Below, one piece after another: positions 259 to 38,147 of a DNA stretch of 38,147 bases (positions are counted from its first letter, which is position 1; each line of letters starts with the position of its first letter). The position numbers and the translations under genes are program-made. Origin of the DNA: Bacillota bacterium (GTDB lineage: Bacteria > Bacillota > Clostridia > Peptostreptococcales > Anaerovoracaceae); contig JAFRHG010000016.1 in assembly GCA_017433375.1 (NCBI GenBank), forward strand, positions 1 to 38,147. Reading direction: 5' to 3'. The notes beneath the pieces were generated by a model that was given only the letters and a program-made list of their open reading frames with translations, had not been told where the DNA came from and did no database searches.

Positions 259-1506
259 ATGAAACGAAACCACTTTCGATCCATTATATATACCGGCGTA
301 CTGGTCGCCATGCTGGCCGTCCTGGCGTTGAGCCTGTCCGGATGCACCACCTATGACAACTTCCGCCAGGCCTTCATCGACGATCCCGAGGACGTGACCG
401 ATACCATCAACATCGGCGTCTACGAACCCCTGGCCGGCGCGGACAAGGACGCGGCCGAGCCGGAAGTCTGCGGCATCGAGCTGGCCCACAAGATGTTTCC
501 CGAGGCGGCGGACGGCCGCAAGGTCAACCTGATCTACGCCGACAACAACTCCAACATCAACGCGGCGGAGACCGCTATCTCCACCCTGCTGACCAAGAAC
601 CCCTCGGTGATCCTGGGCAGCTACGGCAACCTGTACTCCCTGCTGGCCGGAGAGTACATCAAGGAGGCGGAGGTGCCGGCCATCACCATGACCAACACCA
701 ACCCGCTGATCACCCGGAACAACAGCTATTACTTCCGGATCTGCTACATCGACGCGACACAGGGGAAGCTGCTGGCCAACTACCTCAACCACGAAAAGGT
801 CAAGAAGGCCGGCGTGCTCCTTCCGGAAAAGGATGACGCGGCCCTGGCTCTGGCCACGGCCTTCACCAACGCCCTGCGGGATCTGACCGACGAGGACGAC
901 CCCATCGGCTACTACGAGAAATACACCACGGGGGAGATGGACTTCACCGGGTACCTGAACACACTGAAGGAATCCGGCGTGAAATACGTCTTCCTTCCGG
1001 GAGAGGTCCCCGACGCGCTGAACATCATCACCCAGTCCGAAAAGATGGGCCTCGACGTCACCTTCCTGGGCGACATGACCTGGGGCAGCGAGGACTTCCG
1101 CAAAGGGCTTTCCGTGGGGATCAACCCGGAGAGACTTGCCTTTGTACAGTTCTTCGCCACCGACGGCAACGACAAGAAGCCCGTCGTCAACCAGGCCCGG
1201 GAAGACTTCCTGGAAGCCTACCGGAACGAGTACGGGGATGAGGAGCCGGAAGAGGCCGTGGCCCTGGGCTACGACGCCTACCGGATGGCCCTGGACGCCA
1301 TTGCAAAGGCAACCCAGGACTCGCCCCAGCTGGCCAGCGGACAGCAGATCCGCGACGTGCTCCTGGGCGATGACTACCAGTTCGAAGGCGCCTCCGGGAT
1401 CATCCGCTTCAACAAGAACGGCGACCCGAAAAAGACCGCGTACATCAGCACCTGGGAGGGCAACGCGGTCAAGGCCATTTATACGATCGAAACCAATCAA
1501 CAGTAA
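259..1506 (+). CDS. ABC transporter substrate-binding lipoprotein (LivK/Peripla_BP_6 type)
   Basis: A 415-residue secreted lipoprotein. It has basic residues, a hydrophobic stretch and the lipobox L-S-G-C with the lipidated cysteine at residue 29, so it should be anchored outside the membrane. The mature part follows the type-1 periplasmic-binding fold of branched-chain amino-acid/amide receptors, with phrases such as INIGVYEPLAG, PSVILGSYGN, VPAITMTNTNP and YYFRICYIDATQGKLLA. The start at 259 is chosen because it gives a complete signal peptide; an in-frame TTG at 175 would add 28 polar residues. No permease or ATPase gene is in the window, so it may serve a transporter encoded elsewhere or act as a sensor. 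It is first in a tight plus-strand cluster, 16 nt before the NifU-domain gene. The ligand cannot be deduced. Confidence 0.85.
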   Translation: MKRNHFRSIIYTGVLVAMLAVLALSLSGCTTYDNFRQAFIDDPEDVTDTINIGVYEPLAGADKDAAEPEVCGIELAHKMFPEAADGRKVNLIYADNNSNINAAETAISTLLTKNPSVILGSYGNLYSLLAGEYIKEAEVPAITMTNTNPLITRNNSYYFRICYIDATQGKLLANYLNHEKVKKAGVLLPEKDDAALALATAFTNALRDLTDEDDPIGYYEKYTTGEMDFTGYLNTLKESGVKYVFLPGEVPDALNIITQSEKMGLDVTFLGDMTWGSEDFRKGLSVGINPERLAFVQFFATDGNDKKPVVNQAREDFLEAYRNEYGDEEPEEAVALGYDAYRMALDAIAKATQDSPQLASGQQIRDVLLGDDYQFEGASGIIRFNKNGDPKKTAYISTWEGNAVKAIYTIETNQQ

Positions 1507-1522
1507 CACAGGAGGTATTCCA

Positions 1523-1747
1523 ATGGAAAAGAAAATCAATGAAGCGCTGAACCAGATCCGTCCCTTCCTTCAGAGAGACGGCGGTGACATCGAGTTCGTC
1601 GAGTACACCGACGACAACATCGTCAGGGTCAGACTGCAGGGACACTGCGCGGGCTGCCCGGGCGCCCAGATGACCATCAAAGGCGTCGTCGAAAAGATCC
1701 TGAAGGAAAGTTATCCGGAAATCGCCGGCGTGGAAGCGGTTCAGTAA
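1523..1747 (+). CDS. NifU C-terminal domain protein (Fe-S scaffold)
   Basis: A 74-residue protein consisting only of the NifU C-terminal domain. The N-terminal half carries the family signature IRPFLQRDGGDIEFVEY, and HCAGCPGAQMTIKGVVE contains the CxxC pair (Cys42, Cys45) that in this family binds a transient Fe-S cluster for delivery to apo-proteins. The start has AGGAGG at 1510-1515 with normal spacing. It lies between the lipoprotein gene and the dipeptidase gene, both within 20 nt, implying cotranscription. Free-standing short NifU proteins of this size are common in Firmicutes. The family call is firm; the client proteins are unknown. Confidence 0.9.
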   Translation: MEKKINEALNQIRPFLQRDGGDIEFVEYTDDNIVRVRLQGHCAGCPGAQMTIKGVVEKILKESYPEIAGVEAVQ

Positions 1748-1760
1748 CCGGGCAAAGGCA

Positions 1761-3275
1761 ATGCCGAAATTTGATCTGCAGCCGGTTTACCACCGGCTTG
1801 AAGGGTACCGGGCGGAGATGAGCGAATCTCTGTCCCGTCTTATTGCGTTTCCCAGTGTTGCCGTGCGCACGCAGGGAAACCACCCTTTCGGGGATGCCGT
1901 TCAGCAGGCTTATGAAGCCATGCTGGAGATGGCCGCCGAGGAGGGGTTTTTCGTGTGCAACCTGGACAACTTCGGCGGACACTTCGACCTCCCGGGAAAG
2001 GGCGATCAGCTCGTCGGCATCGTCGGCCATCTGGATGTGGTCCCCGAGGGAGACAACTGGGACTTCCCGCCCTACGGCGGCGAGATAACCGACGGTTACG
2101 TCTGCGGCCGGGGCTCCACCGATGACAAGGGGCCGGTGATCGCCTGCTTCTATGCCATGAAGGCGCTGAAGGAGGCCGGCTTCGTTCCCGACAAGACCAT
2201 CCGCATGATCCTCGGTCTGGACGAGGAGAGCGGCTGGGAGGGCATGAAGCATTACGTTGCCTTTGCAGACCGTCTCCCGGACTGCGGATTCACCCCCGAC
2301 GGAGACTTCCCCGTCCTTCACGGAGAAAAGGGATTCCTGGTCTTCAACCTGGCCCGCAAGTTCGGCCGGACCACCGGCAAAGGACTGGACCTGCGTTCCT
2401 TCACCGGCGGCACTGCGGCCAACGCCGTGCCCGATTTCGCCCGCGCCGTTCTTCTGGATACGGCCCAGGGAGGTTACGGCGACATCCGCAAGCTTCTCAC
2501 CGAGCTGAAGGAAAGCCGGGGCTGGCGGATCCAGTCCCGGGGCATCGGCAAGAGCCTGGAGATCACCGTTACCGGGACCTCCGCCCACGGCGCCAGACCC
2601 GAAGAAGGGGAAAACGCCATTTCCATCCTCATGGAAATTCTGGGGCATCTGAACTTCGTCAGCGACGAGGTCACCGAATTCATTCGTTTCTATAACCATC
2701 ACATCGGATTCGAGCTGAACGGGCAGAGCATCGGCTGCGCCCTGGAGGACGAACCCTCCGGGAAGCTGATCTGGAACGTGGGCAAAATCGAACTGGATCA
2801 GAAATCCGTCCAGCTGACCGTCAACGTCCGCTACCCGGTGACCGCCGAAATGGACCAGGTCTACGACGGCATCGCCGCCGTGGTGGATCCCTACGATATC
2901 GGCATCGTCAAGATCGATCACAAACCGCCCATCTACTTCCCGGCGGATGATCCGATGATCGAGACCCTGGTGGAGATCTACCGCCGCCACACCGGCGACG
3001 AGAAGAGCCAGCCGCTGGTCATCGGCGGAGGGACCTACGCCCGGGCGATGGACAATATCGTTGCCTTTGGAGCCCGGTTCCCGGGAGAGCCGGACCTGGC
3101 CCATCAGAAAAACGAAAAGATATCCGTGGACAACCTCGTCCTCCTGTCCAAGATCTACGCCGACGCCATCGCGGCGCTGGCCGGGGAGGCCGAAGAGGCT
3201 GCGGTCGCCGACGATGCGGCGCCGGCCGAAGAGTCCGCGGAGGACAAGGCAACCGGGGAGGCTGAGGAAGCATGA
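1761..3275 (+). CDS. M20 family dipeptidase, PepV/Sapep type
   Basis: A 504-residue cytoplasmic metallopeptidase expected to release the N-terminal residue of dipeptides using two zinc ions. M20 landmarks are in order: VGHLDVVPEGDNW (His90, Asp92), GRGSTDDKGP (Asp121), LGLDEESGWEG (catalytic Glu155, metal ligand Glu156), a middle lid domain, and GGGTYARAM near residue 425. Length fits PepV (about 470) plus an acidic alanine-rich tail of about 30 residues that is not part of the fold. ATG 1761 has no well-spaced Shine-Dalgarno: the only AAAGG, part of the dispersed AAAGGCAA motif at 1754-1761, is almost touching the start codon, so translation may depend on coupling to the NifU gene 13 nt upstream. 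The stop overlaps the next start as ATGA. Confidence 0.9.
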   Translation: MPKFDLQPVYHRLEGYRAEMSESLSRLIAFPSVAVRTQGNHPFGDAVQQAYEAMLEMAAEEGFFVCNLDNFGGHFDLPGKGDQLVGIVGHLDVVPEGDNWDFPPYGGEITDGYVCGRGSTDDKGPVIACFYAMKALKEAGFVPDKTIRMILGLDEESGWEGMKHYVAFADRLPDCGFTPDGDFPVLHGEKGFLVFNLARKFGRTTGKGLDLRSFTGGTAANAVPDFARAVLLDTAQGGYGDIRKLLTELKESRGWRIQSRGIGKSLEITVTGTSAHGARPEEGENAISILMEILGHLNFVSDEVTEFIRFYNHHIGFELNGQSIGCALEDEPSGKLIWNVGKIELDQKSVQLTVNVRYPVTAEMDQVYDGIAAVVDPYDIGIVKIDHKPPIYFPADDPMIETLVEIYRRHTGDEKSQPLVIGGGTYARAMDNIVAFGARFPGEPDLAHQKNEKISVDNLVLLSKIYADAIAALAGEAEEAAVADDAAPAEESAEDKATGEAEEA

Positions 3276-4208: not shown

Positions 4209-7200
4209 CTACTGGGCATCCTCGTCGAGGATCTTCATGGCTCCGTCATAGGTCATGGACAGGTCGTCCATATCCACCGTTCTGCTCCAGATCTCCTTGT
4301 CGCCGCCGGCGCCCTGCTTGCTGAACATCACCTCATCGATGTCGTCCATCACGCGTTTGAATTCGCCGATGTAGGTATTGTACCCAACCTTCTTCTCGTT
4401 CTGGAGGTACTTGGCTTTACCGTTATCTTTGTCATCGTCGGACACCCTGTAGGTGGCCGTGACGCAGGCTTCGATCAGGCTGTCCATGTTGCAGTCCATT
4501 CCGTTCACCGTGTACTCGCCGGTCGTCTGCCAGGCATCCGATCCCTTCTTGAAGCTGGAGGAAATGCCGAAGCCGTTCCCGCTCTTCTTCTTGTAGATGA
4601 TGAAGCCGGCGTTATCGTTTTCGATATCGTAGAAGGCATCCTGATACTGAGTGCTCCGGTTCGGGAAGTCGTACTTGATCTCCTTGGCTCCGCCCGTGTT
4701 GTAATCGTAGGTGTAGATGTGGAGTATGCCGTAGCCGTAATACTCCTGGGTGAAGAAGAACATTTCCGGCCACTTGTCCCCGTTGACGTCGCAAAGGGCA
4801 ACGCAGCAGTCATTGATATCATCGTACCTTCTCACCGCCCATTCGTTATCCGCCAGGACACGGCGGAAGGGCTCTCTCCACTCGATGGAGGTCAGGGCTT
4901 TCAGATCCTCGGACAGCGCCGTAAAGGTCTTGCTTTTGCCCGTCTGTGCAACGCCTTCATTGACGGTATTGATCGCGTCGTCGTATTTTTTTTCGTCGAT
5001 ATAGACGTTGGCCAGTCCTTCATACAGTTCCGCCCGGTCGGGATATGCCTCGATGAGGGCCTTGTAGGAAGCCTCCGCATTCTCGAAGTCCTTCGTCTCG
5101 GCGTACTGCTGGGCCTGGGTCACCGCGTTCTGGTATTTCTCCGCCTCGCTGTGCTCCTTATGGGTCTTCGTGCCGACCAGGGCGCCGCCGGCCAGCACCG
5201 CGACGATCAGTACCACGAGGATGCCGATCTTCAGGCCGCGGCTGGAGTTGTCAGCCTTCCTCGAGGATGAGCTCTTTTTCTTTGCCCCAGTGGACTCGTC
5301 ATCTTCGATGGGCTTGAGGTCTTCTTCCTCATAATCCTGGCCCAGAACCTTGGTCTTGCTCAGTTTGTTATCGTCTCCGCGGAGTTCATCCCGATCGTCA
5401 GCGTCGCGTCCGGCATCCGGTTTCTTCCCGGCTCCGCCCGTTCCGTTTTCGTCCGCCGAACCTGCGGCTGCCCGGGCTGCCGCGGCGCTTTGCTCCGCTC
5501 TGGCGCGGGCTGCTCTGCGTTCGTTTTCCTCCGCTTCCTTCTCCAGACGTTCCTTTTCCAGTTCTTCTTCAGGACGGAGGGACCGGTACCAGAATCCGGT
5601 GTCCTGGGTCACTTCGCCCTCTTCTTCGGCGGTCCATGCTCCGCGCTCCGATGAGTGCTCCTCACGGATCTCGCTCACCCGGCCCTTCGCTTTGCTGACG
5701 GCCTTGTCCGTTCCCTTGCGCATGGACTGCCCCAGAGAACCGAACCAGGCGCCGGCTTTGGCAAGGGGTTTTTCTTCCGACTCGGAAGACTCGGATTCAC
5801 CAGCCTCTGCCTCTCCTGCTTCTCCGGATTTCTCCGCTTCACTGTCGACGAGGCCGAGCTCATCCTGCATATCATCGTGGAACTCCGCCGGTTCGGAATC
5901 GGGTTCTTCAGTCTGCTCCGATTCGGTGGCCGGTTCGGGTTCCGGTTCAATCGCATCTTCGTCCGAGGTCTTTTCCGGCTCGGGTTCTGTTTCGGGTTCC
6001 GGCTTTTCCTCCGCCTCGGCTTCTGTCTCCTCTTCCGCAGCGGCCTCGTCGATCGGTTCCGCTTCATCGGCGGATTCAGTCAAGTCTTCTTCCGCCGTCG
6101 CTTCCGGGGGCTCATCGCTCGTTTCCGGCTCGGCGTCAATCTCATGTTCAGCCGCAAAAGCATCGATCGCTTCCCGCTCATCCGCAGGTTCTTCGATCTG
6201 TTCCGTCAGCTCCGCGGACTCTTCAGCAGGTTCTTCTGCCGGTTCATCCGCCTCTTTGCTCGCCCGGTTTTCCTTGATTTCGCTGACCTTTTCCTTTGCC
6301 GTTCCGACGGCTTTCTCCGTTCCCTTCTGCACGGCCCCGGCGAGTGCACCTATCAGCGCACTGGCCCGATCCGACAGGGTCTGTATCGGTTCTTCCTCAA
6401 TCCATTCCGATTCTTCCGGATTCCATGCGGGCTCTTCAGAGGTCGTTCCCTCTCCTTCGGTATCGACCCTGGTTTCTTCTCCGAACACCGGTCTCGGTTC
6501 CGTGGGCTCCGCTTCAGTTACCTCGGAGGCCTCATCGATCAGGTCCGAAGTCTTTTCCGCCTCGGCGGCAGAATCGTCAGTCTGTTCCGGCTTCTCTTCC
6601 GGCTCTGCTTCCTGTCCGAAGGATGGTTCATCAATGTCATTCAGGGATTCCGTCGATTCCGTCCCGTCTTCCTTAATACCGTCTTCCGGTTCAGCCTCTG
6701 CCAGGGCCGCCCCTATCGGCTCCGTATAGTCCGCCGTATTTGCACGGTTAAAGTTTACGCTTTCCTTTGCCGTTTCCTCCGGGGTTTCCGGCGGCGCGAA
6801 AAAATCATCCGGCTCCTCGGGCTCCTGGAACTTTCTATTCTCTTTGAATTCGTTATATTTGTCTTTTGCCTTTTCCCTTGCCGCGCTGCCTGCCCAGCCA
6901 AGTCCCGTGTGAACCGACTTGCCCAGTGCACCGAGCCATCCGCCGATCTTGTCCAGCAGGACTTCTTCCTGTTCTTCCTCGGCGGGCTCAATGGACTCTT
7001 CGTCGGTAGGCTCGATGGACTCTTCGTCGGTAGGCTCGATGGGTTTCTCTTCCGCAACCTCTGCACCGGCGAGATCATCCGCTTTTTCACCGGCGAACTC
7101 CTCCGATGCTTCCTCTTCGGCTGCTGCTTCGATAACCGGTTCGGCCTCATCTGCAGCCGCCGGTTCATCCCTGTCTTCGTCGCTCTTCCGCGTCGCGTAC

Positions 7201-8393
7201 CAGTCAAAGCCCTCCAGGTCCTCGTCAGCCGGCTCGTCCTCAATGGGTTCTCTGATAACCGGCTCATCCTTGACTTCGGGTTCCTCGGTCTCCGGTTCTT
7301 CGGCATCCATCGCTTCTTCCGCCGCCGGTTCCGTTTCTTTTATCGGGGTCTCTTCCGCCGCCGGATTAAAGATCGGCGCCACATCTTCTGCTGGTGTCTC
7401 TTCCACCGCCGGTTCGCTTACGAAGACCGGTTCCGGCTCTACCGCTTTGACCGGCTCCGGTTCAGATGCCGGCTCAGCATCTTCAACCGCTGGCTCCTCT
7501 GCCCCTTTCTTTTCTGCAGCTTCCGCGAAAACGGTCTGCGTCGCGCCCCAATCAAGGGCCGCCGATTTCTTCGCAGACTCTTCCCGATCCTCCGCCTTCG
7601 GCTCCATCATTTCAAAGGCGGACCAGAAGTTCGAATCCGTCGCGTTGACCGCAATGGTCTCCGCCTCCGGAATGAAATACGTCGCCTGCTTAAGACCCGG
7701 CTGTTCATCCGGTTCCTCCGGCTTTGCAGGGTTCTCAACGTCGGGCTCCGGCGCGATCACCACTGTCGGCTCCTCAACCGCTTCATCTTTCTTCGGCTCT
7801 TCCGCTTCTTTCGGCGGAGGATTCCACAAGTATTCGCTCGTATCCTCAATGTCCTTCGGAGAGGCATTCCAGTCAAACTCGACAAAGGGCTCAGGCTCAT
7901 CCGCCGCTTCTTCCGGCTCCGGCTCCTCGACCGCTTCTTCGAACGTCTCAGATTCGGACTCTGAAGCCACCTCTTCGGATGTCTCTGGTTCCTCGACCGT
8001 CGGCTCCTCATCCGCATTTTCCGGCATGTCAAGTCCCTGTTCCTCAACGGCTTCTTCGTGCTCGTCAGGCTCCGGCTCTTCCTCTGCCTCTTCGGGCTCA
8101 TCGTCCTCCGGTTCTTCAACCTCTTCAACAGGCTCCTCTTCCGGCTCATCGGACTCCGGCTCTTCCTCCGCCTCCTCCGGCTCATCGGATTCCGGCTCGG
8201 CCTCCGGATTGGCCGCCTCTTCCGGCTCAGCCGGGATTGCCTTTTCCTCCGCTTCGCCAGCCTCGGTCACGTCTTCCGCCGCCTCCGGATTGGCCGCCTC
8301 TTCCGGCTCTTCATCCGTCACCAGCTTCTCGCCGCAATACCCGCAGAATAGGCTGTCATCTGAGATTTCTGCTCCGCAAAATCTGCATATCAT
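4209..8393 (-). CDS. Giant acidic zinc-ribbon membrane protein with internal repeats, TPR and C-terminal domain
   Basis: A 1394-residue protein. The N-terminus is a zinc ribbon (CRFCGAEISDDSLFCGYCG, two CxxC pairs). About 1000 residues of Glu/Pro/Ala-rich, probably disordered sequence follow, interrupted by three related helical modules of about 40 residues near 480-522, 669-714 and 877-912 (shared core K-G-T-x-K-A-V-x-x-A-K-x-K-V-S-E-I). One membrane segment lies near 1051-1074 (IGILVVLIVAVLAGGALVG). Then come TPR-like helices near 1088-1154 (FENAEASYKALIEAYP) and a C-terminal domain with DVNGDKWPEMFFF, reminiscent of FG-GAP calcium loops. Firmicutes have many zinc-ribbon/one-membrane-segment/outer-domain proteins, but this linker is unusually long. 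The start at 8393 is chosen for AGGAGGA at 8401-8407; an upstream in-frame ATG at 8432 lacks one. Long plus-strand frames over it are compositional shadows. Function unknown. Confidence 0.85.
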   Translation of the reverse strand: MICRFCGAEISDDSLFCGYCGEKLVTDEEPEEAANPEAAEDVTEAGEAEEKAIPAEPEEAANPEAEPESDEPEEAEEEPESDEPEEEPVEEVEEPEDDEPEEAEEEPEPDEHEEAVEEQGLDMPENADEEPTVEEPETSEEVASESESETFEEAVEEPEPEEAADEPEPFVEFDWNASPKDIEDTSEYLWNPPPKEAEEPKKDEAVEEPTVVIAPEPDVENPAKPEEPDEQPGLKQATYFIPEAETIAVNATDSNFWSAFEMMEPKAEDREESAKKSAALDWGATQTVFAEAAEKKGAEEPAVEDAEPASEPEPVKAVEPEPVFVSEPAVEETPAEDVAPIFNPAAEETPIKETEPAAEEAMDAEEPETEEPEVKDEPVIREPIEDEPADEDLEGFDWYATRKSDEDRDEPAAADEAEPVIEAAAEEEASEEFAGEKADDLAGAEVAEEKPIEPTDEESIEPTDEESIEPAEEEQEEVLLDKIGGWLGALGKSVHTGLGWAGSAAREKAKDKYNEFKENRKFQEPEEPDDFFAPPETPEETAKESVNFNRANTADYTEPIGAALAEAEPEDGIKEDGTESTESLNDIDEPSFGQEAEPEEKPEQTDDSAAEAEKTSDLIDEASEVTEAEPTEPRPVFGEETRVDTEGEGTTSEEPAWNPEESEWIEEEPIQTLSDRASALIGALAGAVQKGTEKAVGTAKEKVSEIKENRASKEADEPAEEPAEESAELTEQIEEPADEREAIDAFAAEHEIDAEPETSDEPPEATAEEDLTESADEAEPIDEAAAEEETEAEAEEKPEPETEPEPEKTSDEDAIEPEPEPATESEQTEEPDSEPAEFHDDMQDELGLVDSEAEKSGEAGEAEAGESESSESEEKPLAKAGAWFGSLGQSMRKGTDKAVSKAKGRVSEIREEHSSERGAWTAEEEGEVTQDTGFWYRSLRPEEELEKERLEKEAEENERRAARARAEQSAAAARAAAGSADENGTGGAGKKPDAGRDADDRDELRGDDNKLSKTKVLGQDYEEEDLKPIEDDESTGAKKKSSSSRKADNSSRGLKIGILVVLIVAVLAGGALVGTKTHKEHSEAEKYQNAVTQAQQYAETKDFENAEASYKALIEAYPDRAELYEGLANVYIDEKKYDDAINTVNEGVAQTGKSKTFTALSEDLKALTSIEWREPFRRVLADNEWAVRRYDDINDCCVALCDVNGDKWPEMFFFTQEYYGYGILHIYTYDYNTGGAKEIKYDFPNRSTQYQDAFYDIENDNAGFIIYKKKSGNGFGISSSFKKGSDAWQTTGEYTVNGMDCNMDSLIEACVTATYRVSDDDKDNGKAKYLQNEKKVGYNTYIGEFKRVMDDIDEVMFSKQGAGGDKEIWSRTVDMDDLSMTYDGAMKILDEDAQ

Positions 8394-8458: not shown

Positions 8459-8673
8459 CACTATTCCAACAACAATATGTGCTGTTTTTCTCGGGATTCG
8501 TCGAAGAAATCTGTTGCCTTTGCACTCCGCTGGTGAAATGTTCCCACCCTCCGGCTACTCCGCCCGCCGGACACATCCCCGGGCGGCCGGGGCAGAAGAA
8601 ACACTTTCCTTTTCCCCGGGAATACTATAGAATAATGGCAGTCGCATTTTCCAAAAGAATTGGAGGTACTGTT

Positions 8674-9648
8674 TTGAAGGAGATTCGCATTGGACTGCTG
8701 GGTCTGGGCAACATCGGGACCGGTACGTACAAGGTTCTGGAGACCAACCGCAGTCAGATTGAAGAAGCGGCCGGATGTCCGGTCAACATCGTCAAAATCC
8801 TGGAGAAGGATATTGACCGGGAACGGGACATCACCGTGCCGAGAGAGAGTTTTGTTTCGGATGCGGAAGAGATCTTTTCCGATCCGGATATTGATATCGT
8901 TATCGAGCTGCTGGGCGGCGTAGAGCCCGCGGCCACCATGATCGAGCGTGCCCTTTGCAGCGGCAAGCATGTGGTCACCGCCAACAAGGCTGCCGTGGCC
9001 GCCAACTATCACCGTCTGATGGACGCGGCGAAAGCCCACGGCGTCACCCTCCGTTTCGAGGCCAGCGTCGGCGGCGGCATCCCCGTCCTGACTCCCCTGT
9101 CCAGCTGCCTGCGCGCCAACCGGCTCACCCGTGTTCTGGGCATCGTCAACGGCACGACCAACTACATTCTGGACAAGATGACCATGGAGGGCCTGCCCTA
9201 CGACGAGGTGCTGAAGGACGCCCAGGCCAAGGGCTTCGCGGAAGCCGATCCCACCGCGGATGTGGAGGGCATCGACGCCGCCAACAAGCTGAGCATCCTC
9301 ATGGCGCTGATGTTCGACCACTACGTCCACCCCAAAGACATCCCCACCAAGGGCATCACGGAGGTGACCGCGAAAGACATCGAGGCCGCACGCAAGGACG
9401 GCTGCCTGATCAAGCTCATCGCCTATGCGGAGGTCATGGATGACGGGCAGATCAAGTATGAGGTCCGGCCCATGCGGATCATCGACACCCACCCCCTGAG
9501 CGGCGTGCACCGGGAGTACAACGCCGTCTTCGTGGAAGGCAACGTGGTGGGCAATCTGATGTTCTACGGCCCGGGCGCCGGCCCCCTGCCCACAGGCAGC
9601 GCGGTCATGGGTGATGTTCTGGAAATTGCAAAGGCAATGGATCGGTAA
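8674..9648 (+). CDS. hom: Homoserine dehydrogenase, short form without ACT domain
   Basis: A 324-residue NAD(P)-dependent enzyme that reduces aspartate semialdehyde to homoserine in the threonine/methionine pathway. The Rossmann motif [12 protein letters not shown] opens the protein; [29 protein letters not shown] and [19 protein letters not shown] are the family signatures around the active site. The start is a TTG at 8674, placed 7 nt after GGAGGT (8662-8667); this gives the expected N-terminus [10 protein letters not shown]. The longer frame back to 8479 is rejected because its extra residues look non-coding. The regulatory ACT domain found in many bacterial forms of 400 or more residues is absent, as in other short forms. 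The SEC-C gene follows 11 nt later. Confidence 0.9.
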
Positions 9649-16705: not shown

Positions 16706-16749
16706 CCGTCTTTGTCAGTGTTGCCTTTATACCCTTTATCCCCGGCGGA

Positions 16750-17707: not shown

Positions 17708-17782
17708 CAGGTTGTAATCGAAGCTCTATGTGGCGAGGCCTCACATCCGTTGCCTTTGCAAATCCGAAGAACACCCGATAAA

Positions 17783-18830: not shown

Positions 18831-18859
18831 TTTACGACAAAGGCAATCCATGCTATATT
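18831..18859 (+). promoter_or_regulatory. Promoter for the 2-hydroxyacid dehydrogenase gene
   Basis: TTTACG (18831-18836), 17-nt spacer, TATATT (18854-18859). The spacer contains a dispersed AAAGGCAA motif (18839-18846). A GC-rich leader of about 120 nt follows before the start codon. The promoter is back to back with that of the nuclease-like gene. Confidence 0.5.
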
Positions 18860-30831: not shown

Positions 30832-31191
30832 CTAATTTGGTATGATTATTATAGGCAGATAGTTTCCCTGCGTCAATCCACCATTTCTGGACTTTTTGAG
30901 TATACCCAGAGCGGGGTCATCGGAAGGATCCGACTTGACCTGGGTATTGTCGGAAGGATCCGACGAATCACCGGAGGGCGATCCGGACTTCTCTCCCGTT
31001 GTTTCCTCTTTCGCCTCCTCCTTGGGAGGGTCCTCCTTCGGCGTTTCCGTTGCCTTTGCACTTCCCCCCTGCTCCGATGCCGCGTGCTGCTTGTCTCCCT
31101 CATCCGCGTAAGCTAGCGTGGCGTAGCTGGGCATCAGAAGGGTCACGCACATCAGCGCGACCAGGAGTCTTGAAAGCATCTTGCTTCGCAT
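30832..31191 (-). pseudogene. Truncated secreted protein running into paralogue B promoter
   Basis: A 119-residue frame: signal peptide (MRSKMLSRLLVALMCVTLLMP, A-Y-A), then a short acidic Ser/Pro/Asp/Lys linker, then ILKKSRNGGLTQGNYLPIIIIPN. That last part is not real protein sequence: its DNA is the conserved upstream and promoter region of paralogue B, found also at 36559-36593 upstream of paralogue D. The frame therefore looks like the 5' end of an older secreted-protein gene cut by insertion or recombination of the B promoter cassette near 30905. The start is uncertain: the AAGGGAG site suits an ATA-TGG region, while in-frame ATGs exist at 31233, 31191 and 31179. It might still make a small secreted peptide. 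Confidence 0.5.
30848..30876 (-). promoter_or_regulatory. Promoter of paralogue B
   Basis: Minus-strand TTGACG (30871-30876), 17-nt spacer, TATAAT (30848-30853). The sequence from about 30731 to 30905 is homologous to the leader and promoter of paralogue D (36420-36593). The -35 lies inside the 3' end of the small gene upstream. Confidence 0.88.
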
Positions 31192-31810
31192 TGTTTTCCA
31201 TATCGATCGTTTCTCCCTTTCATGGTATCTCAACTACTGCTTGACTGCAGCCGGCCGTTTCGCCGGCAATCATCTGACCGCGTCTTTCACGGTCCTGGAT
31301 AGTTTCACACATATATAGGATATTCTACTTTTTAGCTCCACATGGGAATAGTGACCCTGGGGCTATCTTTTCATTTTTTCGGCCCCTGAAGACTCTATCT
31401 GCCTGAAGATCCCGAGCCGCAGGCACCAGATCCTGCCACCCCGAAGGGGCTTGCCCTTGACCTCGTGCACTCACGATGCTACACTGCCCGTCGCGACGGA
31501 GAGAAACCTCCATCTGCCTGTGAGTCCCTCGCCGTCGGTGACCTTCATCAGCATCGTGAGGGTGCGCTGTCAAGGGTGGCAGCACCGCTTTGGATCATCA
31601 TGATTTACTTTTCAAGGTTCGTTTGGAGCCTTTTCCTTCAGTTCCGAGTTTTCATACGTCACTTGACGCTACCGTTCCGACGTGGGGAAAAGGCAATCCC
31701 GGCTTGGGCTGCACGCGAAAACAGCATACCCGCATTATACGGAACATGCTGTCTTCGTAAGAATAGTTTAGGATGGTTGGCTTGGTTGTTGGTCAGCCGC
31801 CTTGCGGCTG
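31192..31810. other. Intergenic region with a long imperfect inverted repeat
   Basis: No convincing gene. 31433-31583 contains an imperfect inverted repeat: TGCCACCC near 31434 with GGGTGGCA near 31575, TTGAC with GTCAA, and CTCACGATGCT near 31469 with AGCATCGTGAG near 31550. Between the arms is an inner CCGTCGCGACGG palindrome. An 86-residue minus-strand frame over it (31325-31585) has a basic, low-complexity sequence and no good ribosome site. The right end holds the terminator of paralogue C and a dispersed motif (31689). Confidence 0.5.
31718..31809 (-). terminator. Shared 3' UTR with two hairpins, paralogue C
   Basis: AGCCGC/GCGGCT (31795-31809) directly after the stop, then the conserved stretch, then a stem built on AACAGCAT/ATGCTGT (about 31718-31754). 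Confidence 0.65.
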
Positions 31811-33631
31811 CTACTTGACGGTGATCTTGAAGGTGGTGTACACGCCGTTCTGGGCGTAGGCGAAGATGGTGCAGGTCCCCGCTCCTTTCGCGGTGACTTT
31901 GCCCTTCTTGCTCACAACCACGACGTTCGGGTTGGAGGATTCCCAGGACACGACTCTGTGCCGGGCGACTCTCTTCTTACCCTTGACCTCCTTCACCTTC
32001 AGCTTCTTGGTCTTGCCGGCGTTCAGGGTGTACTTCGCCTTCTTTGTCGGCTTCACCCTCTTGACGGCCTTGTCGTTTCCTCTCTTGCCCTTGGTGGTGA
32101 CGTGGACCGTCTTTGACACGGCCAGCACTTTGCCGTCCTTATCCACCGCTTTCACGACGAACTTGTAGTAGGTTCCCTTCTTCAGCTTCTCCCCGTGAAT
32201 GTCCCTGGGAACATAGCGGAAAGTGTTGGCGTCGAAGGTCTTGAGCTTCTTATACTTGTACTTCTTTCCTTTGGAGTTGCACCGGTTCCCGTAGACCACA
32301 TACTTGGCTGCGCCCAGTTTGGGGTCAGTCCACTTCAGAAGAATCTTCTTCTTCCCTTTGGAAACGCCTCTGGCCCTCAGCAATCCGAAGGTGGAGCCGG
32401 CGAAGTCACCGTCCGTATCCGTTGCGGTGATCTTCTTGTCCGCCGCCTCTTCTGTCGGAGGCAGGTTCGGATCGACCGGCGGATCTTCCGTTCCTTCAAT
32501 CTTAGCGATAGGAGCATGGGTAAAGGCAACTACGTTCTCCTCCAGATATTTGCCTGATACGCTGCCCTTGCCGTTCGCGTCGATGGTCACGGTGTAGGTC
32601 ACACCGTTGGCCTCCGTCGTCGCGCTCTGGCCTTTGGCCGGGATATTCATCTGCTCTCCATTGACGGTGATCGTTGCGATCTCATAACCATCGTTGGGCG
32701 CGTCATTCACTTCGAATGCGAATGCCTTCTCAATGGACTCGAACTCGCCCATGACCGGCAACGCAGTAAATACAGCCCGTCCCTTGATCATGTCGTTCAG
32801 GTTATGCAAGTCCTCACGATTGACCAATTCGTCTGCGTCGACATCTCCGTTGCGCAGATGCCTCTCCGTCGTCATGTCGGAGCCTTCCGTTGCGTCATTG
32901 AAATAATCCATGAGCAGCTTCAAGTCATCCGCCGTGACCTTCAAGTCATCGTTGGGATCGCCCCGGAAAGTCCAGTCTTCGATGGTTCCATTCTTGTCGG
33001 AACTGAAGCTGAGGGTCGCGTATGTGATCGCCTCGTGAGCAAAGGCAACCTCATTCTCCTCCAGATACTTTCCGAAGACACTGCCCCTGCCGTCCGCATC
33101 GATGGTCACGGTATAGGTCACGCCGTTGGCTTCCGTGGTCGCGCTCCCGCCCTTGGCGGGAAGATTCATTGCCGTTCCGTTGACCGTAACAGCCGAGATC
33201 TTATATCCCAGCTTGGGCGTGTCATTCACTTCGAAGGTGAAAGCCTTCTCCTTGAACTGGTTGCCCATGACCGGCAGAGTAAAGCCTTCCGTTCCCTCGA
33301 TCAAGTCCTTCACATCTGCATGGTCCATAAGGGTGACCAATCCGTCTGCGTCGATATCTCCGTTGCGCAGATGCCTCTCCGTCGTCATGCCGGATTCCTT
33401 GATTGATCCAGCGAGATAAGCACCGAGCGACTTATAGTCCTCCGCCGTGATCTTCTTGTCGCAGTTAGCATCGCCCCGGAAGGTCCAGTCTTCGATGGTT
33501 CCATTTTTGTCGGAACTGAAGCTGAGGGTCGGGCAGATGATCTGTTCGTGAGCAAAGGCAACAGCGGGTAGTCCCAGGATCATCGAAATCACCATCAGGA
33601 TGCCAAAGAAACGACTGATTTTCTTGCTCAT
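31811..33631 (-). CDS. Secreted dockerin-like/Ig-like protein, paralogue C (no beta-helix)
   Basis: A 606-residue exported protein. The signal peptide (MSKKISRFFGILMVI, PAVAFAHE) is followed directly by two dockerin-like modules (about 33-120 and 205-300). Each opens with LSFSSDKNGTIEDWTFRGD and includes MTTERHLRNGD.DAD, and each is followed by an FEVND..VTYTVTIDA.G.GSV.GKYLEEN domain. The Fn3-like, lysine-rich and BIG2-like tail (about 400-606) is nearly identical to that of paralogue D at the DNA level over the last 300 nt. The beta-helix region of A, B and D is absent, so this may be a deletion form or the basic scaffold. AGGAGGGG precedes the start. Confidence 0.83.
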   Translation of the reverse strand: MSKKISRFFGILMVISMILGLPAVAFAHEQIICPTLSFSSDKNGTIEDWTFRGDANCDKKITAEDYKSLGAYLAGSIKESGMTTERHLRNGDIDADGLVTLMDHADVKDLIEGTEGFTLPVMGNQFKEKAFTFEVNDTPKLGYKISAVTVNGTAMNLPAKGGSATTEANGVTYTVTIDADGRGSVFGKYLEENEVAFAHEAITYATLSFSSDKNGTIEDWTFRGDPNDDLKVTADDLKLLMDYFNDATEGSDMTTERHLRNGDVDADELVNREDLHNLNDMIKGRAVFTALPVMGEFESIEKAFAFEVNDAPNDGYEIATITVNGEQMNIPAKGQSATTEANGVTYTVTIDANGKGSVSGKYLEENVVAFTHAPIAKIEGTEDPPVDPNLPPTEEAADKKITATDTDGDFAGSTFGLLRARGVSKGKKKILLKWTDPKLGAAKYVVYGNRCNSKGKKYKYKKLKTFDANTFRYVPRDIHGEKLKKGTYYKFVVKAVDKDGKVLAVSKTVHVTTKGKRGNDKAVKRVKPTKKAKYTLNAGKTKKLKVKEVKGKKRVARHRVVSWESSNPNVVVVSKKGKVTAKGAGTCTIFAYAQNGVYTTFKITVK

Positions 33632-33878: not shown

Positions 33879-33892
33879 GGACATCACTTGCC

Positions 33893-34167: not shown

Positions 34168-34258
34168 AAAACAGCATGCCCGCATTTCGCGGAGCATGCT
34201 GTTTTCTAAAGAATAGTTAGGATGGTTGGCTTGGTTGTTGGTCAGCCGCTTTGCGGCT
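34168..34258 (-). terminator. Shared 3' UTR with terminator, paralogue D
   Basis: AGCCGC/GCGGCT (34244-34258) directly after the stop. The terminator is a perfect 12-bp stem AAAACAGCATGC/GCATGCTGTTTT (34168-34179/34194-34205) with an inner CCGC/GCGG. Confidence 0.8.
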
Positions 34259-34259
34259 G

Positions 34260-36419
34260 CTACTTGACTGTGATCTTGAAGGTGGTGTACACGCCGTTCT
34301 GGGCGTAAGCGTAGATGGTGCAGGTCCCCGCTCCTTTCGCGGTGACTTTGCCCTTCTTGCTCACAACCACGACGTTCGGGTTGGAGGATTCCCAAGACAC
34401 GACTCTGTGCCGGGCGACTCTCTTCTTACCCTTGACCTCCTTCACCTTCAGCTTCTTGGTCTTGCCGGCGTTCAGGGTGTACTTCGCCTTCTTCGTCGGC
34501 TTCACCCTTTTGACGGCCTTGTCGTTTCCTCTCTTGCCCTTGGTGGTGACGTGGACCGTCTTGGAGATGGCGACCACTCTGCCGTTCTTGTCGACGGCCG
34601 TCACGAGGAACTTGTAGTAGGTTCCCTTCTTCAGCTTCTTGCCGAGGATGTCCGACGGAACGTACTTGAAGGTGTTCGCGTTGAACTCCTTGAGCTTGAC
34701 GTATTTGTATTTCTTGCCCTTGGTGTTGCACTGGTTGCCGTAGACCACATACTTGGCTGCACCCAGCTTCGGATCCGTCCACTTCAGAAGAATCTTCTTC
34801 TTGCCTTTGGAAACGCCTCTGGCCTTCAGCAGTCCGAAGGTGGATCCGGCAAGGTCACCGTCGTTGTCCAGGTTGTTGACCATCTTATTGAACTCTTCTT
34901 CCTTAGGTGTCTTGGGATCATCCTTCTTCTCCGGGTCTTCATCTCCCTTGGGGGTGATGACAGGCGTGTGTTCAAAGGCGACCTTGTTCTCCACCAGGTA
35001 CTTTCCGGAAACACTGCCCTTGCCATCCTTATCGATGGTCACGGTGTAGGTCACGCCATTCGCCTCCGTCGTCGCGATCTTTCCCTTGGCGGGGATGTCC
35101 AGGATCTGTCCATTGACAGTGATCAGCGCGATATCATAGCCGGCATTGGGGATGTCCTTCACTTCGAAGGTGAGGGCTTCACCGTCGGTCTGATCCGGGA
35201 GTGGAACTGTGCCGCCGAGCAGATTCCTCACAGTCATTACGTCACTTGCATTGATTTCACCGTCGGCATTCGCATCGGCGTTCCGCGCCTTTCTCTGGGA
35301 CTCTTTGTCCTCGCCCGGTGTTTCACGCATGATTTCATAAATGGCATCTACATCCGCAGCTGTGATCATCTTGTCACAATCCGCATCTCCCCGGAAAGTC
35401 CAGTCGTCGATCTTGCCGTTGCTGTCTGCTTTGGCCTCGAGGGTCGGAGTGATGAGCCTGGTGAGTACAAGTTTGCCTTCAACAACCTGGATTTCGTATC
35501 CCTCGAATTTCGATACAGCTTTGGGCGTGCCTGTGACGTTATTGATAAGTATGATTTTATCACCGGCTTTATATTCGGGAAGGGGACCGGCAACTGAGAT
35601 AGTCATGTCGGTCAGATCAACTGGGCTTGTAGCCGTGAGGACAGTATCTCCGCCAGCGATGTCTTCCGGCAGATCGAAATCCAGAGCCTCAAAATTCTGG
35701 ACACCATTCACAGAACCTTTGCCTTTCACTTTGAGAGTATTGCCCGTGATACAGTCCTTGGTCTCGGTCTCGGTCCCGAAGAGTACTCCTCCGCAAACAT
35801 CACCTCCGATATAATAGTTTTTATTCAGCACGACTGTGTTGTTTATAGCGTTACCGGAAATGCTAGTGCCTCCCCGTACATCGCTGCCAACAGTGCCCCC
35901 GGAAACGGTGACTGTGTTGTTTGCAGCGTTACCGGAAACGGATTGTCCGCCCGCTATGTACTCATTAACAATGCCTCCCGAAAGGGTGACTGTGTTGTCC
36001 GAGGAGCTGTCCCCGTCGCCGCCACATACCCAGGCGTCTATTGTACCGCCTGAAATGATGACTTCATTGGCATTGGCAGCACCGCCCCCACTGCCACCTA
36101 TTAAGGGTCCCGTAGTGCCTCCCGTAACTTCGACTTTATTATTATTGCTGTTAGCATTGATGCTAGAGCCGCCTATGGCTTGCCTCACACTGCCGGCATT
36201 TATGGACACCCTGGCATTGCTTACATCATTGTCATAATCTAGTTTGCCGTAAACGCCACTACAGTCTTGGTCGATGGTGACTTGATAGGGTTCCATTCCA
36301 ATGTAGTTCTCACCTTCCCAAATTCCTCCACTGTTGGCGGCAAAGGCAGCCGCCGGCAGCCCCAGAATCATCGTGAGCCCAACCAGAATGCCAAAGAAAC
36401 GGTTGATTTTTTTGTTCAT
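34260..36419 (-). CDS. Secreted beta-helix/dockerin-like/Ig-like protein, paralogue D
   Basis: A 719-residue exported protein. Signal peptide 1-28 (MNKKINRFFGILVGL, PAAAFAAN). About 60-230 holds beta-helix-type repeats of the form N-x-V-x-V-S-G-G-x-V-x-x-x-V-x-G-G. One dockerin-like module follows near 330-415 (DWTFRGDADCDKMITAAD, NADANADGEINASD), then the LTFEVKD..VTYTVTIDKDGKGSVSGK domain and the common Fn3-like, lysine-rich and BIG2-like tail. The tail matches paralogue C almost base for base, while the middle is closer to paralogue B (RKARNADAN, HTPxITPKGDEDP), so the gene is a mosaic. AGGAGGATA precedes the start. Probably surface-associated, ligand unknown. Confidence 0.83.
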   Translation of the reverse strand: MNKKINRFFGILVGLTMILGLPAAAFAANSGGIWEGENYIGMEPYQVTIDQDCSGVYGKLDYDNDVSNARVSINAGSVRQAIGGSSINANSNNNKVEVTGGTTGPLIGGSGGGAANANEVIISGGTIDAWVCGGDGDSSSDNTVTLSGGIVNEYIAGGQSVSGNAANNTVTVSGGTVGSDVRGGTSISGNAINNTVVLNKNYYIGGDVCGGVLFGTETETKDCITGNTLKVKGKGSVNGVQNFEALDFDLPEDIAGGDTVLTATSPVDLTDMTISVAGPLPEYKAGDKIILINNVTGTPKAVSKFEGYEIQVVEGKLVLTRLITPTLEAKADSNGKIDDWTFRGDADCDKMITAADVDAIYEIMRETPGEDKESQRKARNADANADGEINASDVMTVRNLLGGTVPLPDQTDGEALTFEVKDIPNAGYDIALITVNGQILDIPAKGKIATTEANGVTYTVTIDKDGKGSVSGKYLVENKVAFEHTPVITPKGDEDPEKKDDPKTPKEEEFNKMVNNLDNDGDLAGSTFGLLKARGVSKGKKKILLKWTDPKLGAAKYVVYGNQCNTKGKKYKYVKLKEFNANTFKYVPSDILGKKLKKGTYYKFLVTAVDKNGRVVAISKTVHVTTKGKRGNDKAVKRVKPTKKAKYTLNAGKTKKLKVKEVKGKKRVARHRVVSWESSNPNVVVVSKKGKVTAKGAGTCTIYAYAQNGVYTTFKITVK

Positions 36420-36535
36420 GTTTATATCCTCCTGTCAATCTGCGATGAATTGACCACATTTCTTTCATTCTGCTTCTGCGATTTCAGCTTCGTTTCTTGC
36501 GCTGTGCTCAATTAATCTACCGAATTAGTATGGCT

Positions 36536-36564
36536 ATTATAAGCAGACGGTTTCCCAGCGTCAA
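36536..36564 (-). promoter_or_regulatory. Promoter of paralogue D
   Basis: Minus-strand TTGACG (36559-36564), 17-nt spacer, TATAAT (36536-36541). The leader of about 115 nt is homologous to that of paralogue B. Confidence 0.88.
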
Positions 36565-36601
36565 TCCACCATTTCTGGACTTTTTGAGTATACTTTGACG
36601 A

Positions 36602-36630
36602 TTTACAAGGTTATATGAAAATGCTATAAT
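36602..36630 (+). promoter_or_regulatory. Promoter of the HAD phosphatase gene
   Basis: TTTACA (36602-36607), 17-nt spacer, perfect TATAAT (36625-36630), 41 nt before the start codon. It is divergent from the paralogue D promoter. Confidence 0.75.
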
Positions 36631-36671
36631 ACTGCCATCGGTTATCCCACAGCAACGAAAGGACCAGCTCC

Positions 36672-37343
36672 ATGCCCGTCTCATCCAAAACCCGGCCCGA
36701 AGACTTCCCCTTCCTGATCTTTGACTTTGACGGAACCATCGCCGACTCCAACGATGTCTACGACGATTTCTACCGGAATATGTTTTCCCGCTACGGCATC
36801 CCCGAGGATCCCGATTACAGCGAGGAGCAGAAAACCATGACCCACGGCGTCTTCTGCCGGAGTATTTCCGATCGCATTCACGGGGCGCTCACCGAAGAGC
36901 AGGTGGCCCGGCAGCTGGAGGATTACCTGATCGACTACTACAGCAACCGGGTTCCTTTCATGCCCGGCGCCCGGGAGTACCTGACCCGCATCGACAGCCT
37001 GGGCACCCCTAAGTCCATCGTTACCGCCACGCCGCGCCATCTGATTCTGATGGCCCTGGAGCATCTGGGTCTGACGGACTGCTTCATCGACGTGGTTTCC
37101 CCGGAGATGGTGGGCGGCCGGGATAAGTCCTTCCCCGACATCTATGAAAAGGCAATGGCGCTCATGGGTCACTCCGTCCCGACGGATTTCTGCGTCTACG
37201 ACGATGCGGTTGCAGCCATCCACACGGCGAAGGCCCTGGGGATGTTCACCGTAGGCCTTGCCGACCCCATCGCCAAAGGACAAAAAGAAGCCATGGAGAA
37301 GAGCTGTGATCTCTTCATCCATGACTTCCGCGAATTGCTTTAG
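36672..37343 (+). CDS. HAD-superfamily phosphatase (phosphoglycolate phosphatase-like)
   Basis: A 223-residue cytoplasmic hydrolase. Motif I is FLIFDFDGTIADS (nucleophile Asp18, acid/base Asp20). The helical cap follows (residues about 27-100), then motif II SIVTATPR, the motif III lysine in GGRDKSFPD, and motif IV FCVYDDAVAAIHTAKALGM. The cap type matches the phosphoglycolate phosphatase/beta-phosphoglucomutase subgroup; the substrate is not predictable. AAAGGA precedes the ATG. Its 3' end is only 10 nt from the end of the convergent secreted-protein gene, and no terminator lies between. Confidence 0.87.
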   Translation: MPVSSKTRPEDFPFLIFDFDGTIADSNDVYDDFYRNMFSRYGIPEDPDYSEEQKTMTHGVFCRSISDRIHGALTEEQVARQLEDYLIDYYSNRVPFMPGAREYLTRIDSLGTPKSIVTATPRHLILMALEHLGLTDCFIDVVSPEMVGGRDKSFPDIYEKAMALMGHSVPTDFCVYDDAVAAIHTAKALGMFTVGLADPIAKGQKEAMEKSCDLFIHDFRELL

Positions 37344-37353
37344 CGGGTGCAGC

Positions 37354-38147
37354 CTATTTCACCTTAACCTTCTTTATGGTGGACCACCTGGAGACGTGTT
37401 TGACGCCGCCGATGTCCTTATAGGCGCGCACCTGCACGTAGTAGGTGGTGCCGGACTGCAGGCCCTTGACCTTCAGCGAAGTCTTCGTCTTCTTGACCGT
37501 CTTGGTTACCGGTGCGGAGAAGTCTCTGGTCAGGCTGTACTGAACCTGTATTTTCGCGATTTTCTTCAGGTTCTTTTTTTTGGGCTTCTTCCACTTAACG
37601 GTAAAGCTCTTTTTGGCCTTCTTGACGCTGCCGATCTTCACTGTCGGCAGGTCAACGATTTCCTGGTTAGCGGGGGTCGGGTTCACGGTCGGAGTCGTGG
37701 ATCCGCCGCCGGGAGTGCCGCCACCGGATGATTTCTCTTTGATGACAAAGGACAGTTTCACCTCGCCGGTGTATTCGTTGCCTTTACCCGTCACGATGAC
37801 ATCATAGGTGCCGGCATTCGTTCCACCCTCATTGGTCAGGGTATAGTCGGTCCCTTCGATCAGCAGCTTCTCTCCGTCCGTCACCTTTACCTCCGGCTTC
37901 TGCAGGCTGCCCGTATAGGTTGTCTCTGCCGGATTCAGGGTAACATTATCCTTCCTCAGCGTCCTCTTCACTATTTCGAAGTCGACTGAAGGGCTCCCCA
38001 TGTAGTTGCCTTTGCCTCTCACGGTGACGGGATAGGTGCCGGCATTCGTTCCACCCTCATTGGTCAGGGTATAGTCGGTCCCTTCGACCAGAATCGCCTC
38101 TCCGTCCTTCACCTTTACCTCCGGCTTCTGCAGGCTGCCCGTATAGG
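37354..38147 (-). CDS. Secreted repeat protein with Fn3-like C-terminus (5' end outside window)
   Basis: The frame is open to the right edge, so only the C-terminal 263 residues or so are seen; the ATG-like start at 38112 is a GTG inside a repeat and is not the true start. The visible part has a 76-residue unit (YTGSLQKPEVKV.DGE..L.EGTDYTLTNEGGTNAGTY) of the MBG/Ig-like type, present once in full and partly again at the edge. A Gly/Ser/Thr/Pro linker (SSGGGTPGGGSTTPTVNPTP) and a lysine-rich Fn3-like domain (SFTVKWKKPKKKNLKK, GLQSGTTYYVQVRAYKDIGGVKHVSRW) follow. The tail resembles that of the 890-residue secreted protein, not the BIG2-type tail of paralogues A-D. Exported location is inferred from the domains. 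Confidence 0.8.
   Translation of the reverse strand, partial: YTGSLQKPEVKVKDGEAILVEGTDYTLTNEGGTNAGTYPVTVRGKGNYMGSPSVDFEIVKRTLRKDNVTLNPAETTYTGSLQKPEVKVTDGEKLLIEGTDYTLTNEGGTNAGTYDVIVTGKGNEYTGEVKLSFVIKEKSSGGGTPGGGSTTPTVNPTPANQEIVDLPTVKIGSVKKAKKSFTVKWKKPKKKNLKKIAKIQVQYSLTRDFSAPVTKTVKKTKTSLKVKGLQSGTTYYVQVRAYKDIGGVKHVSRWSTIKKVKVK
37809..38147 (-). repeat. 228-bp in-frame tandem repeat (partial)
   Basis: 37809-37861 recurs almost exactly at 38037-38089, and 37872-37920 at 38100-38147, giving a period of 228 bp (76 codons). At least the start of a further unit is at the window edge. Intervening codons have diverged. Confidence 0.88.

Follow-up and report, generated by a model that had tools for sequence, protein, structure and literature searches.

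A dispersed octamer with lineage-specific variants in a clostridial genus as a candidate DNA uptake sequence of Bacillota

Results

The word AAAGGCAA in the window and the genome

The window analysed here is the entire contig C5 (38,147 nt) of the Anaerovoracaceae genome G000 (1.95 Mb, 89% complete), and the element in question is the short word AAAGGCAA, which is scattered over the window within and between genes, among them those of a family of similar-looking secreted proteins (13829-16501 and 24436-38112). The one family member that was scanned (24436-27288) has matches to bacterial Ig-like and dockerin domains. In total, 41 exact copies are present, 18 on the plus and 23 on the minus strand (Table 1), against a mean of 1.21 and a largest value of 5 in 100 dinucleotide shuffles. 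The base 3′ of the word is a pyrimidine in 34 of them (C 21, T 13), six lie outside predicted genes (1754, 16721, 17750, 18839, 31050 and 31689), and the secreted paralogues hold 16, the remaining 25 being found elsewhere. These figures amend a first-pass annotation of the window in detail only. Its 18 plus-strand copies, its expectation of about one copy and its 34 following pyrimidines stand, while its total of 40 and its 22 minus-strand copies each fall one short owing to an overlooked copy at 1136. Four of its intergenic sites (1754, 17750, 18839 and 31689) are retained, the one placed at 16731 is really at 16721, and that at 8514 falls in a doubtful gene start; most copies do lie outside the secreted paralogues, as it had said, although these hold more than its "about a dozen".

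Genome-wide, G000 contains 1,132 copies of AAAGGCAA (568 forward and 564 reverse), or about one per 1.7 kb, against 134 (73 and 61) of the control, which throughout is AAAGGCAA or the related word concerned read backwards. The extended 10-mer GCAAAGGCAA is found 517 times, its control 9 times, so that the counts exceed those of the control 8-fold for the 8-mer and 57-fold for the 10-mer and are not near background. The main sample of the genome comprises 388 kb, namely the window and the stretches L003-L021. There, the k-mer count against a Markov background that the first-pass annotation had proposed (order 3) places AAAGGCAA first among all 8-mers, with 232 copies for 11.5 expected (z 64). 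The other leading 8-mers mostly overlap it or its A-for-G variant, and the best unrelated one, TGGCCATG, reaches 67 for 15.9 expected (z 12.7). The word is present in 14 of the 15 sampled pieces, the sole piece without a copy being 5.6 kb long. The stretches L014 and L052 have 15 kb in common, which are counted twice for G000 in the sampled-stretch dialect comparisons, the flank logos, the one-mismatch neighbours and the inverted pairs; the double count is absent from the 8-mer ranking, the reading-frame and shuffle test, and the counts on the 388 kb of known DNA uptake sequence (DUS) and uptake signal sequence (USS) words.

The consensus in G000 is kGCAAAGGCAAy. Exact GCAAAGGCAA occurs 101 times in the sample, and each of its one-mismatch neighbours 0-33 times (both with the double-counted 15 kb), the only frequent ones being those with G to A at position 6 (33) or with changes in the first two bases (15-22). 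The others have at most 8 copies, and the conserved core is therefore AAARGCAA. The over-representation of AAAGGCAA is confirmed and is stronger than first noted.

Table 1 Exact copies of AAAGGCAA in the window, and competence and pilus loci of G000.
Feature	Position	Strand	Basis or remark
AAAGGCAA copy	1136..1143	-	exact match; overlooked in the first-pass annotation
AAAGGCAA copy, sense AKA	1305..1312	+	exact match, frame check
AAAGGCAA copy, intergenic	1754..1761	+	exact match, gene context
AAAGGCAA copy, antisense VAF	2257..2264	-	exact match, frame check
AAAGGCAA copy, antisense VAF	3061..3068	-	exact match, frame check
AAAGGCAA copy	6866..6873	-	exact match
AAAGGCAA copy	8237..8244	-	exact match
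AAAGGCAA copy, intergenic or within doubtful start of predicted gene	8514..8521	-	exact match, gene context
AAAGGCAA copy, sense AKA	9630..9637	+	exact match, frame check
AAAGGCAA copy	10349..10356	-	exact match
AAAGGCAA copy	10382..10389	-	exact match
AAAGGCAA copy	11690..11697	+	exact match
AAAGGCAA copy, sense ERQ	12251..12258	-	exact match, frame check
AAAGGCAA copy	13406..13413	+	exact match
AAAGGCAA copy, intergenic	16721..16728	-	exact match; formerly given as 16731
AAAGGCAA copy, intergenic	17750..17757	-	exact match, gene context
AAAGGCAA copy, antisense CLC	18654..18661	+	exact match, frame check
AAAGGCAA copy, intergenic	18839..18846	+	exact match, gene context
AAAGGCAA copy	21205..21212	+	exact match
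AAAGGCAA copy, sense KGN	21911..21918	+	exact match, frame check
AAAGGCAA copy, antisense CLC	23388..23395	-	exact match, frame check
AAAGGCAA copy, antisense LPL	23770..23777	-	exact match, frame check
AAAGGCAA copy, secreted paralogue	24506..24513	-	exact match, gene context
AAAGGCAA copy, secreted paralogue	24701..24708	-	exact match, gene context
AAAGGCAA copy, secreted paralogue	24893..24900	-	exact match, gene context
AAAGGCAA copy, secreted paralogue	25141..25148	+	exact match, gene context
AAAGGCAA copy, secreted paralogue	25247..25254	-	exact match, gene context
AAAGGCAA copy, secreted paralogue	27181..27188	+	exact match, gene context
AAAGGCAA copy, secreted paralogue	29100..29107	-	exact match, gene context
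AAAGGCAA copy, secreted paralogue	29912..29919	+	exact match, gene context
AAAGGCAA copy, secreted paralogue	30653..30660	+	exact match, gene context
AAAGGCAA copy, intergenic	31050..31057	-	exact match, gene context
AAAGGCAA copy, intergenic	31689..31696	+	exact match, gene context
AAAGGCAA copy, secreted paralogue	32522..32529	+	exact match, gene context
AAAGGCAA copy, secreted paralogue	33041..33048	+	exact match, gene context
AAAGGCAA copy, secreted paralogue	33554..33561	+	exact match, gene context
AAAGGCAA copy, secreted paralogue	34801..34808	-	exact match, gene context
AAAGGCAA copy, secreted paralogue	35719..35726	-	exact match, gene context
AAAGGCAA copy	37148..37155	+	exact match
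AAAGGCAA copy, secreted paralogue	37778..37785	-	exact match, gene context
AAAGGCAA copy, secreted paralogue	38006..38013	-	exact match, gene context
DprA	L012:6299-7177		G000
Type IVa pilus (T4aP) locus	G000:C3 10.8-36.6 kb (L003:10763-20000 and L004)		pilA, B, T, C, D, M, N, O, minor pilins
Tad/Flp-type locus	L053, G000		Flp1-like and TadE-like matches below cut-off
DUF4860-PilT operon	G000:C7 4.15-7.9 kb; L052:3154-7913		genus-conserved

Reading frames and strands

The enrichment within genes is independent of the encoded protein. In the 311 predicted genes of the G000 sample, AAAGGCAA counted gene by gene occurs 201 times, which is about 11-fold more than the 18.1 obtained with within-gene synonymous-codon shuffles. 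All six frames are used (sense 41/11/56, antisense 9/74/10), the frame examples listed in the first-pass annotation (Table 1) being correct, and the density is 0.56 per kb inside genes, against 0.75 for the 39 copies that are intergenic or at a gene edge. Taken together, this argues for a constraint on DNA rather than on protein, as had been proposed, and given the six-frame enrichment and the intergenic copies a single codon pair or repeat family cannot account for the word. Both of the refuting conditions that the first-pass annotation had named, counts near background and such a trivial source, thus fail. That the signal is an artefact of base composition, codon pairs or a single repeat family is practically untenable: the related secreted proteins with their 16 of the 41 window copies would point that way, but a codon-pair or repeat-family origin is rejected by the synonymous shuffles and the six-frame use, and the Markov control, the intergenic copies, the genome-wide spread and the comparison of 49 genomes described below all speak against an artefact.

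The strand distribution was tested contig by contig on the unclosed assembly of G000. The G-rich strand carries 136 of 239 copies, a slight bias only, per-contig counts fit an even split (chi2 8.7 on 14 df), and the gene copies are 108 sense and 93 antisense. Across the window, L003-L021 and L053, adjacent copies switch strand 135 times, against 115 by permutation (sd 7.3, p 0.003). Chi and KOPS are likewise short over-represented words, but they are strand-biased, and known Chi sites are strongly oriented relative to replication, whereas the word here is nearly strand-balanced. A recombination signal of the Chi type, read by AddAB/RecBCD-type enzymes and drifting among lineages, would account for a dense, genome-wide, short and asymmetric word with a slight excess on the G-rich strand; the near-even counts within contigs and genes disfavour the Chi/KOPS type, and the tendency of neighbouring copies to alternate strands likewise weighs against this explanation, which appears very improbable. 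The lack of strand bias, noted earlier as a distinction from Chi and KOPS, is thereby upheld save for the slight G-rich excess.

A common core and its dialects

The motif is a family with the common core GCAAARGC and flanks that differ by lineage. Among the 49 genomes of the genus, G000 included, whole-genome counts give 305-862 copies of the core per Mb in 34 and 70-186 in 14, whereas G044 has 321 per Mb but 568 copies of the control, and is grouped with the genomes without the motif. The core is least dense in the motif genomes G031, G041 and G022 (305-335 per Mb). In the sampled stretches, the over-represented form is GCAAAGGCAA in G000, G031 and G041, GCAAARGCAG in G003, G007, G037, G019 and G030, GCAAARGCA in G033 and G036, TGCAAAGGCTGG in G013, and a looser GCAAARGC in G038, G029 and G015, while the core is near expectation in G008, G024, G004 and G044 (ratios 1.03-1.22). 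Two dialects only were counted genome-wide. The first, GCAAAGGCTG, has 864 copies in G013, 556 in G046, 355 in G009 and 332 each in G034 and G042, and at most 89 in each of the other 44 genomes. The second, GCAAAGGCAA, is at background (8-15 copies) in these five, and is densest in G000, followed by G041 (278) and G031 (183 in 1.2 Mb). It is also well above control in genomes of the GCAAARGCA type (for example 254 in G033 and 213 in G007), so that the two forms grade into each other. In G008, which lacks the main word, a weak excess of GCAAAGGGC (9 for 0.6 expected) and TCGAATTC (23 for 4) was seen in L037-L041 and L054-L057.

Outside the genus, 238 genomes from 91 genera were counted for GCAAAGGCAA, and none has more than 62 copies (31 per Mb), compared with 265 per Mb in G000; the core reaches at most 402 per Mb in 192 genomes of other genera. 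As the word is scarce there, its gain is favoured over its loss. G090, from another genus of the same family, has 392 copies of GCAAARGC in 1.1 Mb against 41 of the reversed control. The named loci covered were the best 80 matching the PilT-type ATPase, mostly from gut and rumen Clostridia and many of them metagenome-assembled. Strong core enrichment is found in four of these (L130-L133, z 6.3-9.7; the next z is 4.0) and is absent in L129, L134, L135, L136 and L141, which have 70-78% identity in the ATPase and of which three are only 4-5 kb long. The over-represented words of L164 and L160 were rejected, the former being a local tandem repeat and the latter mostly bunched at one end.

The dialects follow the phylogeny, as judged from a tree of ComEC, a single, unrooted gene tree of the 40 genomes with this protein. 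Motif labels on it were assigned from motif counts, the dialects of G034, G039, G040, G042 and G046 being taken from 3-7 kb samples; subsequent whole-genome counts bore out those of G034, G042 and G046. One branch (support 95/95) parts 29 motif-bearing genomes from the 11 others, the labels change 11 times against 26.2 in shuffles, with none of 200 shuffles as low, and the AA group (support 85/82) and the TGG group (60/73) require one change each.

Individual sites, in turn, appear to turn over. Of the 13 G000 sites in 28 kb aligned with G031 at 81% identity, 4 are intact, which is close to the proportion for any 8-mer (25%), and 5 have three or more differences; in reverse, 4 of 7 G031 sites are intact in G000, and both genomes retain many copies. 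Between G000 and G041, 2 of 3 and 2 of 4 sites are intact. The word hence seems to be kept as a density rather than at fixed positions, albeit on small numbers. In Neisseria, as far as the excerpts of the report go, many young DUS are too unlike their homologues to have arisen by point mutation (PMC2397512).

Such turnover at kept density, small numbers notwithstanding, suggests no position-specific role, which bears on the possibility that a DNA-modifying or genome-wide binding protein recognizes the word, for instance an orphan or BREX-type methylase or a chromosome-organising protein. The word would then be kept because binding is useful everywhere, with dialects following changes in the protein. 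A DNA-level signal with evolving specificity would fit a binding-protein site, and GCAAARGC is partly symmetric (GC....GC), as are some protein sites. On the other hand, the 10-mer GCAAAGGCAA is not palindromic, and restriction-type sites are typically avoided in genomes rather than accumulated. This explanation, which the first-pass annotation had also raised as a genome-wide protein-binding site, is considered rather unlikely.

Competence and pilus genes

The first-pass annotation had suggested a look for com genes, and ComEC, DprA and pilus genes are indeed present in G000 (Table 1). ComEC, which in G000 has 806 aa with DUF4131 and a lactamase domain, is found in 40 of the 49 genomes. These comprise 29 of the 34 motif genomes, among them all 12 of at least 90% completeness, and 11 of the 15 motif-free ones. 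In the T4aP locus, the C, M, N and O proteins and most minor pilins are assigned by gene order and look only. A 4,530-codon secreted protein is embedded in this locus, with three copies of the word in its 13.6 kb. T4aP-type PilB is found in four of the 49 genomes, G000 and G031 with the motif and G004 and G026 without it, and TadA-like matches by size and score in about 42, of which only that of G000 was examined.

The DUF4860-PilT operon encodes a transglutaminase-like protein, a ComGB/PilC relative (T2SSF), small membrane proteins including DUF4860, and a PilT-family ATPase, with a BTAD-type regulator next to it in some genomes. Many gut Clostridia have relatives of the ATPase, which was the part of the operon compared there. 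One of the small proteins carries in its membrane segment a glutamate that is invariant in 13 of 13 aligned homologues, as in type IV pilins. Neither this operon nor the T4aP is one-to-one with the presence of the motif, and a single machine tied to it was thus rejected, as was ComEA as the reader of the word, with six genomes including G000 under the cut-off.

The word might also be a past uptake sequence whose copies persist as remnants in lineages that have ceased to import DNA in this way. The motif genome G039 (91% complete), which has only weak matches to the pilus-type ATPase family, and the sparse core in G031, G041 and G022 would agree with it; however, the surplus of exact GCAAAGGCAA over its one-mismatch neighbours (101 against 0-33) argues against long decay in G000, and such an origin appears improbable.

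Mobile and atypical DNA

No copy is found in 9.06 kb of mobile genes (IS66, the C36 integrative element and the C19 integrase), where 5.3 would be expected (P 0.005), the pieces, two of five integrase matches and the sole IS66 match, having been chosen after the counts were known. On the C36 contig, the first 9 kb have eight copies and the last 9 kb none. Of the three integrase loci left unused, at about 3.5 kb per locus, one has 4 copies and the other two have 2 apiece (C15 four, C14 two). With pieces picked post hoc, copies in C10, C15 and C14, and no depletion in codon-atypical genes, a depletion of the word from foreign DNA is no more than suggestive. At L238:9748-15199, in a word-free part of a contig, lies a small integrative element. 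It encodes an integrase and also has regulator- and primase-like genes, the latter recognized by look.

Discussion

The properties of AAAGGCAA are best read as those of an uptake sequence that evolved independently in Bacillota and differs from the words of the known families. The available excerpts of PMC5031613 and PMC13020248 describe uptake sequences for two Gram-negative families, the Neisseriaceae and the Pasteurellaceae. The likeness to neisserial DUS (GCCGTCTGAA and its dialects), as portrayed in parts of PMC3630211 and PMC2397512, extends to an asymmetric word of about 10 bp, hundreds to thousands of copies per genome within and between genes, and lineage dialects that track a tree, which in Neisseriaceae is that of the core genome (PMC3630211). 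In the same excerpts, neisserial DUS are scarce in acquired DNA, for which the support here is weak. The word differs from DUS in its sequence, its phylum and the few inverted pairs. With the Pasteurellaceae USS (AAGTGCGGT), it shares a short dispersed word with species variants, as far as the passages in PMC5031613 and PMC13020248 go. In the 388 kb of G000, GCCGTCTGAA and AAGTGCGGT occur 0 times, for 2.0 and 1.1 expected, and the word is therefore classed as DUS/USS-like and as a member of neither. Further, USS have conserved flanking tracts, which are not seen in the context table of the window. HIP1 of cyanobacteria is an extremely frequent palindromic octamer with a debated role; the word here is likewise a very frequent octamer but is not palindromic. 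In the titles and abstract openings of the open-licence literature, no report of an uptake sequence in Bacillota, Firmicutes, Clostridia or Lachnospiraceae was found among the matches listed; none of the listed matches to AAAGGCAA as a string concerned uptake, and four related 9-mers searched as whole words gave only an unrelated match.

Several lines of evidence make it fairly probable that the AAAGGCAA/GCAAAGGCAA word works like DUS and USS. First, the word is short, asymmetric and abundant, with 1,132 8-mers and 517 10-mers in 1.95 Mb. Next, its strands are nearly balanced and its lineage variants share one core. Finally, ComEC, DprA and pilus genes accompany it in G000, and the earlier suggestion of an uptake-type sequence thus gains support. 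Under such a model, kGCAAAGGCAAy with its core AAARGCAA would be a short tag preferred by a pilus-type DNA-uptake machine. DNA of kin, carrying the tag about once per 1.7 kb, would be taken up more often and recombined into the genome, and copies would spread and be kept by biased uptake, that is, by molecular drive, perhaps together with selection for the uptake of kin DNA. Relatives would read the same GCAAARGC core with other flanks, as dialects. Word-bearing DNA would be preferentially bound or taken up and a pilin-type protein would read the word. Neisserial DUS are read by the minor pilin ComP. Here, the reader may be among the proteins of the Tad/Flp-type locus (L053), of the DUF4860-PilT operon (L052) or, in G000 and G031, of the T4aP locus (L003-L004). 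In Micrococcus luteus, Flp pili function in natural competence, according to the portions available of PMC6370729.

A number of observations weigh against an uptake sequence. The competence genes do not discriminate, ComEC being present in 11 of 15 motif-free genomes, and the DUF4860-PilT operon is found in at least six of these (G002, G004, G017, G024, G026 and G044). ComEA is over the cut-off in 43 of 49 genomes and under it in G000, G002, G021, G031, G040 and G046, the assemblies being incomplete. Among the 12 motif genomes with a completeness of 90% or more, four (G015, G020, G031 and G039) have no PilT-type match listed other than that of the T4aP. In the C10 integrase region, which was outside the mobile count, the 15 copies over 18 kb equal the density elsewhere, and codon-atypical genes of the G000 sample are not depleted of the word. 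The spacing of copies is close to random (CV 0.96), and the sample, with its 15 kb counted twice, contains only three close inverted pairs, so that a terminator use like that in Neisseria is not seen. Seven of the 192 genomes of other genera (G066, G077, G090, G128, G193, G207 and G221) have the core at 305-402 per Mb, densities read by eye, and the low end of the motif group therefore overlaps background; six of the seven, G090 excepted, have high control counts (283-814).

The chances are slightly better than even that the word represents a third independent origin of uptake sequences and the first in Bacillota, with a single ancestral gain in gut Clostridia of a pilus-borne reader of GCAAARGC and at least three to four dialects since, which may be obstacles to the exchange of genes across species. 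If so, it would provide an independent replicate for the origin of uptake sequences and for whether molecular drive or a role as a kin-recognition barrier maintains them. Natural competence, and a surface protein that reads the sequence, would then be expected in gut bacteria that are known here mainly from metagenome assemblies.

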